Below, in pieces: positions 3,980 through 31,844 of a DNA stretch of 64,000 nt. Numbering within the stretch: the stretch's first letter is position 1; each line of letters begins with the position of its first letter. Source of the DNA: Casimicrobium huifangae (GTDB lineage: Bacteria > Pseudomonadota > Gammaproteobacteria > Burkholderiales > Casimicrobiaceae). The DNA lies in NCBI RefSeq assembly GCF_009746125.1, contig NZ_CP041352.1:1329847-1393846 (forward strand), given 5' to 3'. Made by a program: the position numbers and the translations under genes. The notes below the pieces were generated by a model, which saw only the letters and a program-made list of their open reading frames with translations, did not search any database and was not told the origin of the DNA.

Positions 3980-5326
3980 ATGAGTCAATCCGCATCCGTT
4001 CAAGCCAAGATGGCCGAAGCCGTCGCCGCCCTCGAAAAAGACTGGGCAACCAATCCGCGCTGGAAAGGCATCAAGCGCAACTACAGCGCGGCTGACGTCG
4101 TTCGCCTGCGTGGTACCGCTGCCGTTGAGCACACGCTCGCGAAGAAGGGTTCGGAAAAACTCTGGAACCTGATCAACACCGAGCCGTTCATCAACTCGCT
4201 CGGCGCGCTGACTGGCAATCAGGCCATGCAGCAAGTGAAGGCAGGCCTCAAGGCGATCTACCTCTCTGGCTGGCAAGTCGCGGGCGACGCCAACCTCGCT
4301 GGCGAGATGTATCCGGACCAATCGCTGTATCCGGCCAACTCGGTGCCGTCAGTCGTCCGCCGCATCAACAACACGCTGATGCGTGCCGACCAGATCCAGT
4401 GGATGGAAGGCAAGGACGACGTCGACTACATGGCGCCAATCGTGGCCGATGCCGAAGCCGGTTTTGGCGGCGTGTTGAACGCCTATGAACTGATGAAGGC
4501 GATGATCGATGCCGGCGCGTCGGGCGTGCACTTCGAAGATCAGCTCGCCAGCGTTAAGAAATGCGGCCACATGGGCGGCAAAGTGCTGGTGCCGACGCGT
4601 GAAGCGGTTGAAAAGCTCACCGCCGCCCGCTTTGCGGCGGACGTGATGGGCGTGCCGACTGTGCTGCTGGCGCGCACCGATGCCGAAGCCGCTGACCTGC
4701 TGACCAGCGATGTCGATGAAAATGATCGCCCGCACTGCACCGGCGAGCGCACCATGGAAGGCTTCTACAAGACGAAGCCGGGCTTCGAGCAGGCGCTGTC
4801 GCGCGGCCTCGCTTATGCACCGTACGCTGACCTGATCTGGTGCGAAACCGGCAAACCGGATCTCGAGTTTGCCCGCAAGTTCGCCGAAGGCATTCACAAG
4901 AAGTTCCCGGGCAAGATGCTGTCGTACAACTGCTCGCCGAGCTTCAACTGGAAGAAGAACCTCGACGAATCGACGATTGCCAAGTTCCAGCGCGAACTCG
5001 GTGCGATGGGCTACAAGTACCAGTTCATCACGCTCGCCGGCTTCCACAGCCTGAACTACTCGATGTTCAACCTGGCCCACGGCTACGCGCGCAACAACAT
5101 GAGTGCGTTCGTCGAGCTGCAGGAGGCTGAGTTCGCCGCGGCTGAAAAGGGCTTCACCGCCGTCAAGCATCAGCGCGAAGTGGGCACCGGTTACTTCGAT
5201 GCTGTGACACAAGTGATCCAGGGCGGCCAAAGCTCGACCACGGCGCTGCATGGTTCGACGGAAGACGAACAGTTCTTCGACGACAAGAAGCCGGCCCTCA
5301 AGCTGGCGGTGGGACAAAACGACTAG
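3980..5326 (+). CDS. aceA: Isocitrate lyase
   Basis: Splits isocitrate into glyoxylate and succinate, the first step of the glyoxylate shunt needed for growth on acetate or fatty acids. The 448-residue protein contains the diagnostic KKCGHMGGK loop near residue 193, with the catalytic cysteine. Upstream of it come the metal-binding DAEAGFGG segment and the FEDQ motif, and [13 protein letters not shown] follows. The ATG is preceded by an AAAGG ribosome site. No malate synthase gene is adjacent. The upstream region is long, AT-rich and contains an inverted repeat, consistent with regulated transcription. The next 200 bases hold nothing I recognise before a small-RNA-like transcription unit. Confidence 0.97.
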
Positions 5327-5530
5327 CGAGTCGTTGGGTCAGAACGACTAAACAGTCGATTAGACAAAACGGCCAAAGCGGGACGACTGGCATCTTCGGC
5401 GCAGCAGCTTCGGGTTTCGCAGACCTGAAGCGCGTCGTAGTCATCTGCGTGTCCGCTTGCGTTTTATCGCATGGCTATCGGCTGATACGGGTTATGGCAC
5501 CAAAAAAGTGACAAAAGCACCAGAAAGGGC

Positions 5531-5558
5531 TTGTAACTCTTATAAATGACCCTATAAT
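5531..5558 (+). promoter_or_regulatory. Sigma-70 type promoter of a short transcript
   Basis: TTGTAA at 5531-5536 and a perfect TATAAT at 5553-5558 are separated by 16 bp. The expected start is around 5565-5567, about 60 bases before an intrinsic terminator. No gene lies downstream on this strand until ribBA, which has its own upstream gap. Confidence 0.7.
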
Positions 5559-5565
5559 CGCCCCT

Positions 5566-5629
5566 GATTTCCTCGAGGAGGAGGGAACCCTTCAGCCCGC
5601 GCCGCGTTCACACGCCCGCGGGCTTTTTT
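5566..5629 (+). ncRNA. Candidate small RNA, about 64 nt
   Basis: This transcript is predicted only from a consensus promoter immediately upstream and an intrinsic terminator at its end. It contains the self-complementary TCCTCGAGGA followed by a purine-rich GAGGAGGAGGGA stretch with three GGA triplets, then the terminator hairpin. The purine stretch resembles a ribosome site or CsrA/RsmA-binding triplets, so the RNA could act by titration or by pairing with pyrimidine-rich messages. I see no start codon with a meaningful reading frame in it. It does not match any RNA family I can name. Confidence 0.5.
5594..5629 (+). terminator. Intrinsic terminator
   Basis: AGCCCGCG at 5594-5601 pairs perfectly with CGCGGGCT at 5617-5624 and is followed by a T run. 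It reads only on the plus strand, because the minus strand has no T run after the stem. It therefore does not serve the convergent methyltransferase gene. Confidence 0.8.
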
Positions 5630-5706
5630 CTGCCTGTCGTGCCGGCCTGTCGCGGCGCAATTTGCGGAGACAAGACCGAGCCATTGCTGCGTGCAAGGGC
5701 GCGGAG

Positions 5707-6444
5707 TTACAGCGCCGTCGCGACCGGTGCCAGCGCCTTCAGCCAGCGTTCAAAGGGTAATTTGTAGTCGGCCCGAAGCGCGCGCGCACGAGCCTGTAAG
5801 GCACGCGCATCCAGCGCCGGTAGTGGCGATTTGCTGGCGATGACGGTGACGTTTTCGGTGGCGATAGCTGGCAACAGAACAATGTTGTCCACGCCAAATA
5901 CCGCTCGTAGCCGACGCAGTCCGCCACGGTAGCGTGACACGCTGCTCCACATGTTGGCCACGAATACGCCGTTCTTGCGCAACACACGATGTGCCTCGGC
6001 GTAGAACTCCGCCGATTCGAGTGCGCCCACGCGCCCGCGACCGTCGTAGCAATCAACCCAGATCCAGTCGAAGCTTGATGCTGGCCGCTCGGTGATGACT
6101 TTGGCTGCATCTCCCTGCGTGATACGCACACGGCTATCGTCCTGCGGCAGCGGAAAGGCAGAGTGCGTCAGCGAAATCACGTCGTCACGCAACTCCACGA
6201 TGTCGAGTCGCTTCAGGCTGTCGCTCCAGTTGGCAAGCGCCCAGCGCGGCAAGGAACCTACGCCGAGACCGGCCACATAAACCTGCTTCGGCGGCGGCAC
6301 AAACAGCAGTGCAGCACACATGTCCTGCGCGTAACCCAGCGCCAGTTCGTCCGGGCGGGAGATGCGCATCCTGCCCTGTACCCACTCGGAGCCAAAGTGC
6401 AGGGTGCGAAAGCCCAGGTGTTCCGAGATGAGGAGGTCAGACAT
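5707..6444 (-). CDS. Spermidine-synthase-like methyltransferase-fold protein
   Basis: A 245-residue protein with the Rossmann fold of the spermidine synthase/SAM-methyltransferase group. VAGLGVGSLPRW is the nucleotide-binding glycine loop near residue 58, followed by LDIVELRDDVI with the acidic ribose-binding position. SFDWIWVDCYDGRG is the active-site strand near residue 128, and a VLRKNGVFVANMW segment follows. True spermidine synthases are longer and have an N-terminal beta domain; here only a short N-terminal part precedes the fold, so the substrate is unknown. The gene is transcribed away from ribBA; the 156 bp between them should carry both promoters. Confidence 0.7.
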   Translation of the reverse strand: MSDLLISEHLGFRTLHFGSEWVQGRMRISRPDELALGYAQDMCAALLFVPPPKQVYVAGLGVGSLPRWALANWSDSLKRLDIVELRDDVISLTHSAFPLPQDDSRVRITQGDAAKVITERPASSFDWIWVDCYDGRGRVGALESAEFYAEAHRVLRKNGVFVANMWSSVSRYRGGLRRLRAVFGVDNIVLLPAIATENVTVIASKSPLPALDARALQARARALRADYKLPFERWLKALAPVATAL

Positions 6445-8837: not shown

Positions 8838-8870
8838 ATTCCGCCGCCACTTCCACCTGCGGCGTTCGCG

Positions 8871-9911
8871 ATGACCGAGTTTGAGCTGATCGAACGCTTC
8901 TTCAAACGTCGCAGCCGCACCTCCGTGTTGGGCAATGGCGACGATTGCGCACTGGTGGCGCCGGCACCCGGCAACGTGTTCGCCATCACCACCGACACAC
9001 TGGTGGCCGGGCGTCACTTTCTGCCCTCGATCACGCCTGAGCGACTCGGGCGTCGGGCGGTGCATGTCAATCTGAGCGATCTCGCAGCGATGGGTGCTGC
9101 ACCTCGCTACGCCCTGCTGTCGCTGACCCTGCCCGAGATTGACGAAAGCTGGGTCGCAGCGTTCGCGGCTGGCCTGTGGGCCGCACTCGACGAGTTCGAG
9201 GTCGAACTGGTCGGCGGCAATACCACCCGCGGCCCGATGGCGATCGCGCTGACAGCGCTGGGTGATGTGCCACCCGGTCAGGTGTTGACCCGTACCGGCG
9301 CTTGCCCCGGCGATGAACTTTGGGTCAGTGGACCGGTGGGGGACGCGGGCTGGGCGCTGACAGCGCTGCTGCAGGATGGTGATGGTGCGGGGGAGCTGGT
9401 CATCACCGCGAGTCCCGCGCAGATCGACAAGTACGAGTGCCCGACTGCGCGGGTGGCCCTCGGCCTCGCGCTTAGGGACGTGGCAAGCAGTTGCATTGAC
9501 ATTTCCGACGGTCTGCTCAGTGAGGCGCAACATCTGGCGTCGGCATCCGGCGTCGACATTGACATCGACATCGTGGCGATTCCCACCGGCATCACCGATG
9601 TTGACCGCAGCGATGTCGGGCAGGCAGCGCCGGTGATGAATACGGTTGCTACCGGCAACGAGCGCAATCGCATCTTGCGCGCGCGCCTGGCACAGCATTG
9701 CCTGCTGGCGACGGGTGACACCTACGAGCTGCTGTTTACCGCGCCATCGTCCCGTCACGACGATGTGGTGCGACTGCTGGCGGCGCAGGACTTGGCCGGA
9801 GCGTGTATCGGCCGCGTGACAACCTCCGCCAACAGACCTGCAGTGCGCGTGCTTGACGCACAATCGCGCCTGATGAACATCGAAAGCAAGGGCTGGGATC
9901 ATTTCGCATGA
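8871..9911 (+). CDS. thiL: Thiamine-monophosphate kinase
   Basis: Phosphorylates thiamine monophosphate to the active cofactor thiamine diphosphate. The 346-residue protein begins with MTEFELIERFF, a typical ThiL start. It has GNGDDCALV (Mg/ATP-binding aspartates) near residue 22, NLSDLAAMGA, the VGGNTTRGP glycine segment and the CIDISDGL motif. Its stop codon overlaps the pgpA start by four bases (ATGA), which indicates translational coupling. Confidence 0.96.
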   Translation: MTEFELIERFFKRRSRTSVLGNGDDCALVAPAPGNVFAITTDTLVAGRHFLPSITPERLGRRAVHVNLSDLAAMGAAPRYALLSLTLPEIDESWVAAFAAGLWAALDEFEVELVGGNTTRGPMAIALTALGDVPPGQVLTRTGACPGDELWVSGPVGDAGWALTALLQDGDGAGELVITASPAQIDKYECPTARVALGLALRDVASSCIDISDGLLSEAQHLASASGVDIDIDIVAIPTGITDVDRSDVGQAAPVMNTVATGNERNRILRARLAQHCLLATGDTYELLFTAPSSRHDDVVRLLAAQDLAGACIGRVTTSANRPAVRVLDAQSRLMNIESKGWDHFA

Positions 9912-28454: not shown

Positions 28455-29930
28455 ATGCGACTGAATCTTCAATCCCTGTCTTCGCTGCCCGCCACTGTTG
28501 AGCGCCCGAATGCTGCTGTCACCAGCGCGGGGGTCGGCATCGTCCACCTCGGCATCGGCGCCTTTCACCGCGCGCATCAGGCGGTGTACACCGATGACGC
28601 GATGGCGCTGAGCGGTGGTGACTGGGGCATTTGCGGTGTGAGCCTGAAATCGCCGACCGTTCGCGACCAGCTTGCACCGCAGGACGGCCTGTACAGCGTT
28701 CGCACCGTCTCGCGTGCGGGCGACGCGTGGCGAGCCGTGGGCGCAGTGCGCGAGGTGCTGTTCGCGCCGGCGCAGTTGCGGGAGGTGATCGCCCGCATTG
28801 CGCGCGCCGAGACGCAGATCGTGTCGCTGACGGTGACCGAGAAGGGCTATTGCGCCAACGTCGGCAAGCGCGAGCCACTGTGGGATCACCCGGATATCGC
28901 CAATGATCTGGCGCATGCTGACGCGCCGGTCAGCGTGCTCGGCGTGCTGGTGGCTGGGCTGCACGAGCGCTACCGCAAGCGCGGGGCGCCGCTCACCGTG
29001 CTCTGCTGCGACAACCTGCCCGAGAACGGCGCCGTGCTGGAGGCGCTGGTGCATCGCTTCAGCGAGCGCCTGTATCCGCAGATGCTGCCGTGGCTGCGCG
29101 AGAGCGTGCGCTTCCCATCCGCGATGGTGGACCGCATCGTCCCCGCCACCAAAGCGGGCGACCTTGACGATGCCAAGGCTGCGCTCGGTGTGGAAGACCA
29201 CGGCGTAGTGCGCGCCGAGCCGTTCGGGCAATGGGTGATCGAGGATCGCTTTGCCGCTGCGCGCCCGGCATGGGATCGCGTCGGCGTGCAGTTCGTCGCC
29301 GACGTCAAACCGTTCGAGAAGATGAAGCTGCGGCTGCTTAACGGCTCGCACTCGCTGATGGCCTATCTGGGCTATCTCGCAGGCTACGAGACGATCGCCG
29401 AGACGATCAGCGACCCCGCCTTCGAGCACGCGGTGCGCGGGCTGATGCGCGAAGCTGAATCCACGCTCGACCCGGTACCAGGCACTGACCTCGCGGTCTA
29501 TCAGACGCAACTGATCGAGCGCTTCGGTAACCCCGCCAACGGCCACCGCTGCGCGCAGATCGCGATGGACGGCTCACAAAAGATTCCGCAACGCTGGCTC
29601 GCCGTGGCCCGCGAGCGCATGGCCGCAGGGCAGGGCATCGACGCCATCGCGCTCGCCATCGCCGGCTGGATTCGCTACCTGTACGGCAAGGACGAACTCG
29701 ATCAGCCCATCACCATCGCGGACCCGCTCGCAGGCGAATTCGCAGCGATTGCCGCAAAGTACTCCTACGATGCGCTCTCATTCGCCGACGCCGTGTTGCG
29801 TGTAGAAGCCGTATTCGGCGAACTGGGCCGCACGCCGGCGTTTGCGGCGCCCGTGAAGCGGCTGGTCAGCCAGTTGTTCCGGGATGGGGCGCAGGCGACG
29901 GTTGCCGACTTCGGGGCGCGATCAGGCTGA
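28455..29930 (+). CDS. Mannitol dehydrogenase family oxidoreductase, fructuronate-reductase-like
   Basis: A 491-residue polyol/aldonate NAD-dependent dehydrogenase related to UxuB (fructuronate to mannonate) and mannitol dehydrogenases. The N-terminal nucleotide domain contains GIVHLGIGAFHRAHQAVY. The catalytic domain contains KLRLLNGSHSLMAYLGYLAG with the conserved lysine and N-x-x-H. It starts 8 bp after the ligase gene, so it is the third gene of the plus-strand operon. Together with the two dehydratases it suggests conversion of a hexuronate via an aldonate to a keto-deoxy acid. No kinase or aldolase for the later steps is in the window. Confidence 0.87.
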   Translation: MRLNLQSLSSLPATVERPNAAVTSAGVGIVHLGIGAFHRAHQAVYTDDAMALSGGDWGICGVSLKSPTVRDQLAPQDGLYSVRTVSRAGDAWRAVGAVREVLFAPAQLREVIARIARAETQIVSLTVTEKGYCANVGKREPLWDHPDIANDLAHADAPVSVLGVLVAGLHERYRKRGAPLTVLCCDNLPENGAVLEALVHRFSERLYPQMLPWLRESVRFPSAMVDRIVPATKAGDLDDAKAALGVEDHGVVRAEPFGQWVIEDRFAAARPAWDRVGVQFVADVKPFEKMKLRLLNGSHSLMAYLGYLAGYETIAETISDPAFEHAVRGLMREAESTLDPVPGTDLAVYQTQLIERFGNPANGHRCAQIAMDGSQKIPQRWLAVARERMAAGQGIDAIALAIAGWIRYLYGKDELDQPITIADPLAGEFAAIAAKYSYDALSFADAVLRVEAVFGELGRTPAFAAPVKRLVSQLFRDGAQATVADFGARSG

Positions 29931-29994
29931 GCGCTGAACAACCAACGTCACCAGTCGCAGCGACGTACCTTTCCCGACCCCGGTCGTGGCGCCT

Positions 29995-30248
29995 CCGTTC
30001 GTGGTGAGCTTGTCGAACCATGAACCCGTAAGGGGCGTAGGGTGGGTTTCAACCCACCCAAATTGATACCAGCCAAATTTGTTCATCGCAGGATTGTCTG
30101 CGAACGCCACCAGCGCGCTCAATGGCCGCGCGGGGCCAGTCACTTTTGTTCCGACTAACGCGCTTCGCGCATAAGTCTCCACGCTGCTTCGCTGTGCCAA
30201 TCGCGGCAAAAGTAACCGAAAGCGCTCGCCTCGCAGCCCGCTTCATCC
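29995..30248. repeat. Left arm of inverted composite repeat
   Basis: Contains, in order, a REP-like CCGTTCGTGGTGAGCTTGTC, a perfect hairpin GGGTGGGTTTCAACCCACCC (30040-30059) and a 143-bp core (30106-30248) ending GGCAAAAGTAACC...CTTCATCC. The REP and the core recur in reverse orientation at 31566-31769. The remaining part of the 497-bp gap (30249-30427) holds GC-rich repeat-like sequence without a gene. Confidence 0.75.
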
Positions 30249-30427
30249 TGCGGTGCTCGCGTTTCGCGGGATGTGTTGAACGTCGCGCGAATGCTCCGCT
30301 GGCGCTACGCACAGTGCGCGCGACAACGCCTCTTGGATCGCGAAACGCTCCGCTCCTCGACGCGGGCTGACGGGGCGGACGAGCCGAAACAACGCGTACT
30401 TGATATAGGGTCTACGCTAATATCGTG

Positions 30428-31519
30428 ATGAAAGCTCAGCAAATTTGCGGCGACTATATGGTTAGGTATCAGCACGCTCTCGACGGCTATGGCAAAACGG
30501 TGTCGGCAAGATCTATTGCTGGAACCGAAACAAGCGGGGTTCGATATACATGTCTGGGCTGCGCCAATGACTTGGTCGCACGAGTCAACGGTCAACAGCA
30601 TCAACCCCATTTTGCGCACAAGATTCAAGTCGAGTGCAGCGGAGAGACCTATCTTCATCGTCTGGCAAAGCAAGTTTTTGTTGAGACTTATCAGAACTGT
30701 TTAGTTCACGAGACTCCGTTTGAAATCGTTTTGCCCGTTGATCGACGATGTGCGAAATACGCGCCGCTGATCAACAAGCATTGCAGTCTAGGTACAGCGG
30801 ACAAGGCATTCGACCTTACAAACTACTATCGCGAAGTTCGGGTCGAAGCGCGAGATGGCTCGTTTGTTCCCGACGTAACTCTAGTCAGCCAAAAAAATCC
30901 GAACGACAAAATCTATGTAGAAATAGCGGTTACGCATTTTCTGTCCGAAGAAAAAGCCGCGTCATCAAACCGGATTATTGAAATCCCAGTCGAAAATGAA
31001 TCGCATGTCGAACATATTCGCACAGCCAAGTTGACGACGAAGGTGGCATCGTTCCAAGGCTTCGCAGTGTCTACTGATCGCGTCCACGATGACGATTGCA
31101 AATGCGACGGTGAGAACTACTATGTATTTACGGCCTATCTATCCGGCAAAGCTATTCTGCGATTGATGACGCTACGCAGCTTGTTTTCCGAGGTGCGGAA
31201 AGATTCAGAGAAAATCGTTTATACGAATATCTCAAAGGCATCAGACAGATGGCAGGAGGACTTGGACTGGGACGGTCGGCGCTCGAAAGGTCGACCAGAT
31301 CAATCGTCTTGGGATGCAGAGGACCGGGGTGGGCGATTCGTTCAAGAAGTGAAATTGGCAGCCGCGCGTGGAACCTCCGTACGCAACTGTTTTTTGTGTA
31401 AATACCACGGAACCAGCTACGACTTATCGCCTGGCGGCGGAATTTTCTGCAAAACATTCAAGAAGCGGTGCAACTCAAATGAAGCTGCCAGCTGCGAAAG
31501 GTTCAGGCGAGCCGAATAG
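30428..31519 (+). CDS. CoiA-like PD-(D/E)xK nuclease-family protein
   Basis: A 363-residue protein that I place tentatively with competence protein CoiA-type nucleases. The N-terminus has a YTCLGC zinc-knuckle-like pair (C42, C45) followed by QPHFAHK (residues 60-65), the CoiA hallmark. A helix with E73, H77 and K81 (SGETYLHRLAKQ) comes next. The candidate active site is VPDV (148-150) plus VEIAVTH (E165), where an alanine stands at the position that holds Lys in most PD-(D/E)xK enzymes and Gln in CoiA. A cysteine cluster near the C-terminus (CFLCKYHG...CKTFKKRC...C) may bind zinc. Its base composition is visibly AT-richer than all neighbours and it is enclosed by inverted repeats, suggesting acquisition. 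A role in defence or DNA uptake is possible but unproven. Confidence 0.6.
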   Translation: MKAQQICGDYMVRYQHALDGYGKTVSARSIAGTETSGVRYTCLGCANDLVARVNGQQHQPHFAHKIQVECSGETYLHRLAKQVFVETYQNCLVHETPFEIVLPVDRRCAKYAPLINKHCSLGTADKAFDLTNYYREVRVEARDGSFVPDVTLVSQKNPNDKIYVEIAVTHFLSEEKAASSNRIIEIPVENESHVEHIRTAKLTTKVASFQGFAVSTDRVHDDDCKCDGENYYVFTAYLSGKAILRLMTLRSLFSEVRKDSEKIVYTNISKASDRWQEDLDWDGRRSKGRPDQSSWDAEDRGGRFVQEVKLAAARGTSVRNCFLCKYHGTSYDLSPGGGIFCKTFKKRCNSNEAASCERFRRAE

Positions 31520-31565
31520 TGGTTTGAGGTTGGTCGTTGATGCATCGAGAAACGTGAGTATCGCT

Positions 31566-31769
31566 GGATGAAGCCGGCTGCGAGGCGAGCGTTTTTGGTT
31601 ACTGTTGCCGCGATTGAAAAAAGTGACTGACCCCGCGCGGCCTCAGAGCGCGCTGGTGGCTACCGCTGCCCGTGTTCGGAGCGCAAACATCACCCTCTCC
31701 CTAGCCCTCTCCCCTCAAGGGAGAGGGAACCACAAGCGTTCATGGTTCGACAGGCTCACCACGAACGGA
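31566..31769. repeat. Right arm of inverted composite repeat
   Basis: Reverse-orientation counterpart of 29995-30248. GGATGAAGC-GGCTGCGAGGCGAGCG, GGTTACT-TTGCCGCGATT, AAAGTGACTG-CCCCGCGCGGCC and GAGCGCGCTGGTGGC match the left arm with few differences, apart from a missing inner segment of about 50 bp. The REP TTCATGGTTCGACAGGCTCA (31740-31759) also matches. Between core and REP is a different hairpin, CCCTCTCCC...GGGAGAGGG. Confidence 0.75.
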
Positions 31770-31844
31770 AGTGCGCGCCACGAACGCAGGCCAAGCTGCC
31801 AACGGCGAGGCGAACCGCGCACTCGGCGCGCGCAGCAGCCGCAA

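Follow-up and report, generated by a model that had tools for sequence, protein, structure and literature searches.

A low-GC gene for a CoiA-like protein in Casimicrobium huifangae is probably the cargo of a non-autonomous gene-cassette unit, here seen in one loaded copy, whose cargo turns over at fixed sites. The gene lies in a 64,000-nt stretch of DNA (hereafter the window) between two facing copies, or arms, of a folded repeat. The anatomy of the unit, the structural conservation and orientation bias of its arms, its empty and loaded states, the cargo differences at the same site and its recurrence in Aeromonas are all matters of observation. More tentatively, we suggest that the unit belongs to a widespread, undescribed cassette system in which facing folded repeats of ~230 nt, empty or loaded, dock single foreign genes—some of them for defence—without a site-specific integrase of their own. 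We found no description of a paired-arm cassette in the literature searched, which left most subscription journals outside its coverage; as far as searched, the paired-arm cassette is undescribed.

The sequence-only reading of the window had picked out a low-GC single gene between inverted composite repeats, and this is what we find. Three inverted repeats enclose the gene (Table 1), and the interior has a GC content of 49.2%, the flanks one of 64.3%. The inside-minus-outside GC difference of -0.151 compares with a mean of 0.002 (SD 0.027, minimum -0.059) for 226 same-size stretches of the window. That reading also spoke of a self-contained cassette. Cassette it is, but its repeats are not particular to the gene; it is one copy of a general paired-repeat cassette.

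The right arm is inverted, faces the left arm and is truncated, lacking most of the central palindrome, while the left arm carries an extra stretch of ~50 nt in the alignment (~30148-30197). The left arm is among the 13 sequences of the covariance model R1 described below and the right arm is not. A third R1 match near the cassette (28791-28954, minus strand) scores just 14.9 bits. Neither inner end of the window copy has a hairpin. The cargo reading frame has 364 codons if it begins at GTG 30425 and 363 if it begins at ATG 30428. The longest reading frame of several homologues starts at the position of window Met12 (ATG 30458), so a real product of 353 residues is possible; judged from the sequences, the true start is likely ATG 30428 or ATG 30458. 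The genes flanking the cassette we take to be of mannitol dehydrogenase and aspartate-semialdehyde dehydrogenase type. The outer short REP-like repeat is multicopy in the genome and probably not confined to the cassette: alone it makes up ~30 of the 51 matches in a repeat search of the own genome. Short repeats of this kind (GTTCGTGGTGAGC type; window 31736-31770 and other copies) frequently lie directly outside arms.

Table 1. Features of the window cassette, in window positions
Feature	Position	Strand	Basis
Left arm	30106..30377	+	Covariance model R1, 167 bits; inverted repeat with right arm; alignment
Left arm make-up: outer hairpin, ACTTTT/AAAAGT hairpin, long quasi-palindrome	30106..30377	+	
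Right arm	31530..31660	-	R1, 51 bits, E 7.5e-15; inverted repeats I1 and I2
Cargo gene, CoiA-like protein	30425..31519	+	ORF; CoiA_N, E 7.6e-6; 23-member alignment A5
CoiA-type N-terminal motif C43-x2-C46, H62-F-x-H65, C71	30551..30637	+	Alignment A5
PD-(D/E)xK-like core P149-D150, E166-x-A168, K177	30869..30955	+	Alignment A5
C-terminal cysteine cluster C322-x2-C325, C342, C357	31388..31495	+	Alignment A5
Outer short repeat, REP-like	29989..30025	+	Inverted repeat I3
Outer short repeat, inverted partner of 29989-30025	31738..31774	-	Inverted repeat I3
Inverted repeat I1	30198-30268/31546-31616		71 nt, 87% complementary
Inverted repeat I2	30106-30147/31619-31660		42 nt, 90% complementary
Inverted repeat I3	29989-30025/31738-31774		37 nt, 92% complementary

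Each arm is a quasi-palindrome of ~230 nt whose stems are kept through compensatory changes. R1 was built from 13 aligned arms, at loci obtained by a DNA search with the left flank, the copies lying in inverted pairs. On the arm alignment A3, 94.4% of 747 cells are paired, compared with 36-45% when the structure is slid by 1-3 columns. Two-sided change occurs in 34 of 58 pairs, against 7-12 when slid and 18.2 (SD 2.3) in shuffles, none of 500 reaching as high. Because the structure and the alignment of A3 share an origin, we made a second alignment with MAFFT from 18 arms of 18 records outside the genus, Variovorax included, on which RNAalifold predicted 35 pairs, 24 of them with two-sided change; this second set is not fully independent, since its arms were found with R1. 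G-U pairs are rare in A3 (25 of ~705 paired cells, 12 of them within one pair), which would fit a palindrome kept at the DNA level better than one kept as RNA. No Rfam 15 family exceeded its threshold at eight loci, and the one match at E <=1, Pseudomon-groES, scored 28.5 bits against a required 50.

In the own genome the arms come in pairs. R1 gave 20 matches at E 0.1, 17 of them above 50 bits; the three weak ones, antisense to stronger arms and overlapping them, were left out. Sixteen of the 17 strong arms make eight face-to-face pairs, and one arm, at 685595, stands alone. The eight interiors measure 554-1158 nt, hold one main reading frame each and have GC content below that of their flanks, and no two of the eight cargos are alike. 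Besides the CoiA-like protein they include an Mrr endonuclease (Mrr_cat, 1.3e-36 in Pfam; type IV enzyme, 2.4e-89 in PADLOC), a macro-domain protein (1.1e-9 in Pfam; weakly DarG-like, 2.2e-7 in PADLOC) and a methyltransferase (4.8e-15 in Pfam). Three cargos have no Pfam family among the seven of eight scanned, a set that includes the CoiA-like protein and leaves out locus L033.

Three other genomes of the genus (G379, G380 and G378) add four more facing pairs, and a G378 cargo matches HSDR_N_2 weakly (1.7e-5). The few defence-type matches among cargos are the CoiA-like, Mrr, HSDR_N_2 and DarG-like macro proteins. The genome G372 is arranged differently: one of its nine neighbouring pairs of arms faces and the remainder are same-strand tandem runs. 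We kept these runs apart from the 12 facing pairs of G000, G379, G380 and G378, and counted the G372 pair at L039 among the loaded interiors below. Same-strand arms at the G372 loci L039, L040, L041 and L052 are spaced 300-500 nt apart.

The arms reach well beyond the genus. They occur in 12 of 40 genomes of the family, the own one included (E 0.01), and, at E 1e-6 and with stricter filters, in 94 of 300 genomes of the order, spread over 49 of 135 genera. Each copy number is a minimum, because only part of the first-look candidates was scored in each genome. One Iodobacter plasmid carries a single arm. Orientation was read from 24 genomes chosen for bearing arms, among the 150 matches listed for them, or 96 once the 54 from one genome, G701, were left out. 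Among these 96, all from other genera, 17 of 19 neighbours less than 5 kb apart lie face to face; of the other two, one is back to back and one a same-strand overlap. G701 bears 94 arms or more. Among its 54 listed matches, 52 share the majority strand of the contig that carries them, and one of its nine listed neighbours within 5 kb faces, so that with G701 the facing count is 18 of 28 listed neighbours (coordinates read by eye). Its strand bias looks as if arm orientation followed replication.

Many seemingly single arms also have a partner. When 20 of the best of them, a set without two that lay close to the end of a contig, were rescanned over ~3.5 kb on each side, ten proved to have a facing partner, one a back-to-back partner and nine none. 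A pair in G416 (L038) was dropped from all counts for its 20-bit score, host-like GC and mirror-image contig, and the pairs L122 and L159 enclose host-like DNA, probably by chance. L159, in G480, encloses a ribonucleotide-reductase-like gene, and near that gene and the arms lies a 401-residue reading frame (5038-6240) whose C-terminal part looks TIR-like by eye.

Facing pairs exist in empty and loaded states. Outside the genus, 27 inner gaps fall into 14 of 70-269 nt, one of 389 nt and 12 of 803-2998 nt. Variovorax paradoxus VAI-C (CP063167.1) has arms at 173493-173712 and 173994-174212, separated by 281 nt, and whole empty units (L115, L116, L162) are dispersed like MITEs. GC content is lower than in the flanks for 24 of 25 loaded interiors (13 in the genus, 12 outside it), L122 being the exception; 18 of the 25 hold a single reading frame of at least 80 residues, and blastp at 1e-4 found no similar pair of cargo proteins among them, at most two proteins being taken from each. 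One 513-residue cargo in G686 (L129, 1607-3145; 41% GC) matches nothing in Pfam or PADLOC, and its middle recalls PD-(D/E)xK nucleases by eye.

In one family, two hairpins are central in short-gap units, and loaded units have hairpins near the inner ends (by eye), so the cargo appears to be situated between the hairpins. In the 23 loaded pairs other than L122 and L159, stems of at least 8 occur at 14 of 46 inner ends. Among shuffled ends the figure is 5 of 920, and none of the 23 middles has such a stem. A candidate loaded-versus-empty pair, L126 and L168, was dropped, as just one flank matched.

At fixed sites the cargo differs between sister species. Both flanks and both arms are conserved together at site A only: there the outer flanks are 87-90% identical to those of the own genome, a facing pair is present in the own genome and in two sister species, and the cargo is, depending on the species, Mrr, a lipoprotein-like reading frame (by eye) or two small reading frames. 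In G371 site A has no arms, and 77 nt separate the two genes. Conservation of both flanks together with a different cargo is seen at sites C, D and E too, with one scoring arm in the sister species. At site B one flank matches between species, and the arms are 61-62% identical compared with 84% for the flank. The arm tree places several arms from different sites of the own genome together, and others with sister-species arms of other sites. Together with the arm and flank identities at site B, the tree indicates that units are replaced or homogenised, and not simply inherited. The G372 stretches that match sites D and E on one flank contain tandem runs and no obvious cargo.

At the window's own site no arm was found in the stretches of ten relatives around the right-hand gene. 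The left-hand gene is recognised beside it in four of the ten, and in three of these the two host genes are 120-485 nt apart. In G379 two other reading frames, without arms, lie between the host genes (L088, 100-1500); by eye they resemble a toxin-antitoxin pair with a P-loop protein.

The same combination of cargo and arms recurs in another lineage. The sequence-only reading had proposed surveying homologues for inverted-repeat flanks. We searched for arms at 41 CoiA-like loci or fragments, with flanks of limited length and Picosynechococcus represented twice; arms were present at one, in Aeromonas salmonicida ATCC 33658, and at none of the rest. The CoiA-like protein of this locus is, at 49%, the nearest relative that we found. 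Between the facing arms, at 5312-5430 on the plus strand (22.5 bits, E 5e-5) and 8864-9098 on the minus strand (19.8 bits, E 3e-4), lie CoiA-like and ATPase-like genes with 33-42% GC against ~60% outside. The two arms are mutually inverted over 116 nt (78%, E 1e-20) and have the same hairpin. CoiA-like cargo in a similar unit of another lineage argues against chance. Aeromonas caviae has a similar arm, present singly.

In the proposed unit, two quasi-palindromic arms of ~230 nt face each other between chromosomal genes. Unloaded, the unit spans ~550 nt, ~100 nt of it between the arms; loaded, it has low-GC foreign DNA in its middle, usually one gene, with short hairpins at the inner ends in some cases. 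Arms and cargo at a given site would be replaced over evolution, and the homology for cassette exchange would come from arms of like sequence, at other places in the genome or on DNA that enters the cell. That exchange might proceed by RecA-type recombination with imported DNA, and new copies may be founded by a recombinase that acts in trans. As the arms are inverted relative to each other, recombination between the two would flip the cargo and not delete it.

The strongest competing idea, which we nevertheless consider unlikely, is that the arms are transposon ends, the whole of arm, gene and arm being moved, in the manner of mobile insertion cassettes, by a transposase that acts in trans. 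Inverted ends, a passenger that is usually a single gene, dispersal through the genome and the existence of an empty site (site A in G371) would all follow from it; a change of cargo at the same site would not, and no transposase was found between arms, either by Pfam (one protein in 16 of 25 loaded interiors) or, for the others, by eye. No target-site duplication was seen at the units. We found no recombinase linked to the arms, and a link to Y1 transposases (RAYT/TIRYT) has no support: in ten genomes, none of the 20 regions covering 22 of 30 Y1 matches has a Y1 gene flanked by arms. One region does have arms, more than 4 kb from the gene, and one other an 11.4-bit match; two arm-bearing genomes have no Y1 match.

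Alternatively, the arms could be passive passengers, because intergenic sites gather other repeats too. On this account REP-like or MITE-like arms collect in intergenic spaces that tolerate foreign genes and take no part in exchange. Other repeats, the short REP-like element among them, do occur in the intergenic stretches with arms, and single arms (nine of 20), the same-strand tandems of G372, the high copy number mostly on one strand in G701 and the MITE-like dispersal of whole empty units (L115, L116, L162) all fit it. What it does not predict is the facing of neighbours (17 of 19, and 10 of 11 on rescanning), the low GC of the enclosed gene-sized stretches (24 of 25) or the recurrence in Aeromonas, and we think it improbable. 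We give still less credence to the idea that the arms are insulators—bidirectional terminators or RNA-processing hairpins shielding host transcription around foreign genes—for which the strong hairpins, including those at the inner ends of cargo (14 of 46 against 5 of 920 shuffled), speak, and against which stand short-gap pairs with no gene to insulate and a scarcity of G-U pairs (25 of ~705) that better fits palindromy of DNA than of RNA.

If the cassette reading is correct, genomes of this order contain small slots of a standard form, in which single foreign genes are taken up and exchanged. Unknown accessory and defence genes could then be traced through the arm sequences, cassette by cassette, and the testable question would arise of what loads an empty slot.

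The cargo in the window appears to be a new member of a known CoiA-like, PD-(D/E)xK-like kind. Pfam CoiA_N scores 25.8 bits against a cut-off of 26.3 (E 7.6e-6), and DUF7828 is also slightly under its cut-off (E 9.9e-5). The protein features named in the sequence-only reading are well conserved in an alignment of 23 proteins, the window's included. In the CoiA-type N-terminus H62, F63 and H65 are invariant and C43, C46 and C71 conserved in at least 90%, a motif that could bind zinc. In the core D150, E166, A168, H171 and K177 are invariant in all 23, so that alanine invariably takes the usual catalytic lysine position (E166-I-A168). Cysteines 109, 120, 227, 322 and 325 are invariant, and 342 and 357, which complete the C-terminal cluster, are each conserved in at least 90%.

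CoiA is described, in the consulted part of the source, as having a PD-EXQ site with arginine where COG4636 has a swapped lysine (PMC1189080). The window family instead has PD-ExA with an invariant K177 in all 23 members, a combination that makes a migrated catalytic lysine plausible, with K177 as the candidate at the swapped position.

The predicted structure is a fair model (pLDDT 80.9, pTM 0.67), and Foldseek returned no match to it at E 0.001. Near the top, all above that threshold, were SfsA (0.09), PfoI (0.32) and EcoRV (at least 0.36), mixed with methyltransferases, which lends the PD-(D/E)xK fold weak support. A confident match to an unrelated fold, named in advance as evidence against the nuclease assignment, did not appear, Foldseek giving no confident match to any fold. 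PADLOC, PHROGs and the PDB sequences gave no match for the window protein, and the sole NCBIfam match was weak and irrelevant.

Homologues are thinly scattered. In a sample of 40 genomes of relatives, the other 39 give no match to the gene at E 0.01, and among 369 genomes of the class, the own one included, two others have matches, both weak and partial. Matches occur in 792 plasmid records, and in four of these a match covers at least 80% of the query (Acinetobacter, Nostoc, Picosynechococcus and Sulfurimonas). Enterobacteriaceae supply most of the 792; in one plasmid, of IncHI1 type (L009), the CoiA-like protein adjoins an ATP-dependent helicase within the transfer region. Genome contigs scanned for CoiA-like relatives yielded 34 loci. 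Among the taxa with homologues are Acinetobacter, Aeromonas, Bacteroidota, cyanobacteria (Nostoc and others) and Desulfobulbaceae. The description of the gene as a proteobacterial solo version was therefore too narrow, given homologues in Bacteroidota, cyanobacteria and others, and some relatives are not solo. The scattered distribution that the sequence-only reading named as support, with defence genes beside some homologues, is what we see, and the loci are not fixed, a fixed locus being the other counter-evidence named.

Some neighbourhoods contain defence-type genes. An Acinetobacter plasmid has HNH, methyltransferase, HNH and CoiA-like genes in a row; in Nostoc MS1 BREX genes are near; and in Picosynechococcus an HNH gene is near, with CRISPR and phosphorothioation genes slightly farther away. 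No named defence system is annotated around the genes of Nostoc linckia and Sulfurimonas. We scanned 87 of 88 selected neighbouring reading frames from 24 loci, the L058 helicase being left out; PADLOC and Pfam tallies contain restriction, helicase, methyltransferase and HNH families, each with few members, beside ordinary metabolic families. Four of ten individually scanned neighbours have a strong match: the one at L057 is an HKD+Snf2 candidate, that at L056 a type I methyltransferase, that at L059 a DrmD-like helicase and that at L061 a type III restriction enzyme. The other six match nothing at 1e-20. The methyltransferase cassette L031 has no more than generic similarity to the methyltransferase-like gene found upstream of the CoiA-like gene in Acinetobacter (L054).

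The window cargo would, we infer, be a nuclease of PD-(D/E)xK fold acting against phages or plasmids. Might it rather be a helper of DNA uptake or recombination, like pneumococcal CoiA? Its CoiA_N similarity points that way, as CoiA is implicated in DNA uptake and recombination in the consulted part of the source (PMC1189080), but we judge this a poor prospect, given a gene absent from the other sampled relatives and scattered over phyla, relatives of which some adjoin restriction genes or helicases, and an active-site variant that departs from PD-EXQ. The CoiA-like proteins gain a family whose active site is unusual and of which some members neighbour restriction and helicase systems.

Several known systems resemble these units. 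Mobile insertion cassettes hold a passenger gene between inverted repeats without a transposase. The window copy too has such a passenger, without a transposase and between inverted repeats. Here, however, the arms are structured quasi-palindromes of ~230 nt, empty units are common and the cargo at the same site varies between sister species. Integron gene cassettes and pdif modules are small exchangeable gene units bounded by recombination sites, a description that also suits the units proposed here; the arms are far longer than such sites, lie on both sides and face each other. TIRtrons, TIR families and REP dimers, as far as the consulted part of the source describes them, share with the arms inverted repeats, some of them self-complementary, and a dimer layout, whereas the gene enclosed in TIRtrons is a Y1 transposase and the genes enclosed here are varied and foreign, with no Y1 link (PMC3733652).

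The cargo, for its part, resembles the CoiA family (COG4469, pfam06054) in its CoiA_N-type N-terminal motif and in a PD...E core with a conserved downstream basic residue at a candidate swapped position; against the consulted descriptions of that family it differs in having ExA and not EXQ, an invariant lysine and not arginine, an added C-terminal cysteine cluster and a scattered distribution, and its Pfam match falls slightly below the cut-off. A CoiA domain is also present among the proteins that functional selection in E. coli recovered for phage defence, according to the consulted part of that report (PMC9519451). That anti-phage system and the role we envisage for the window protein are alike, as described, in placing a CoiA-domain protein in phage defence.
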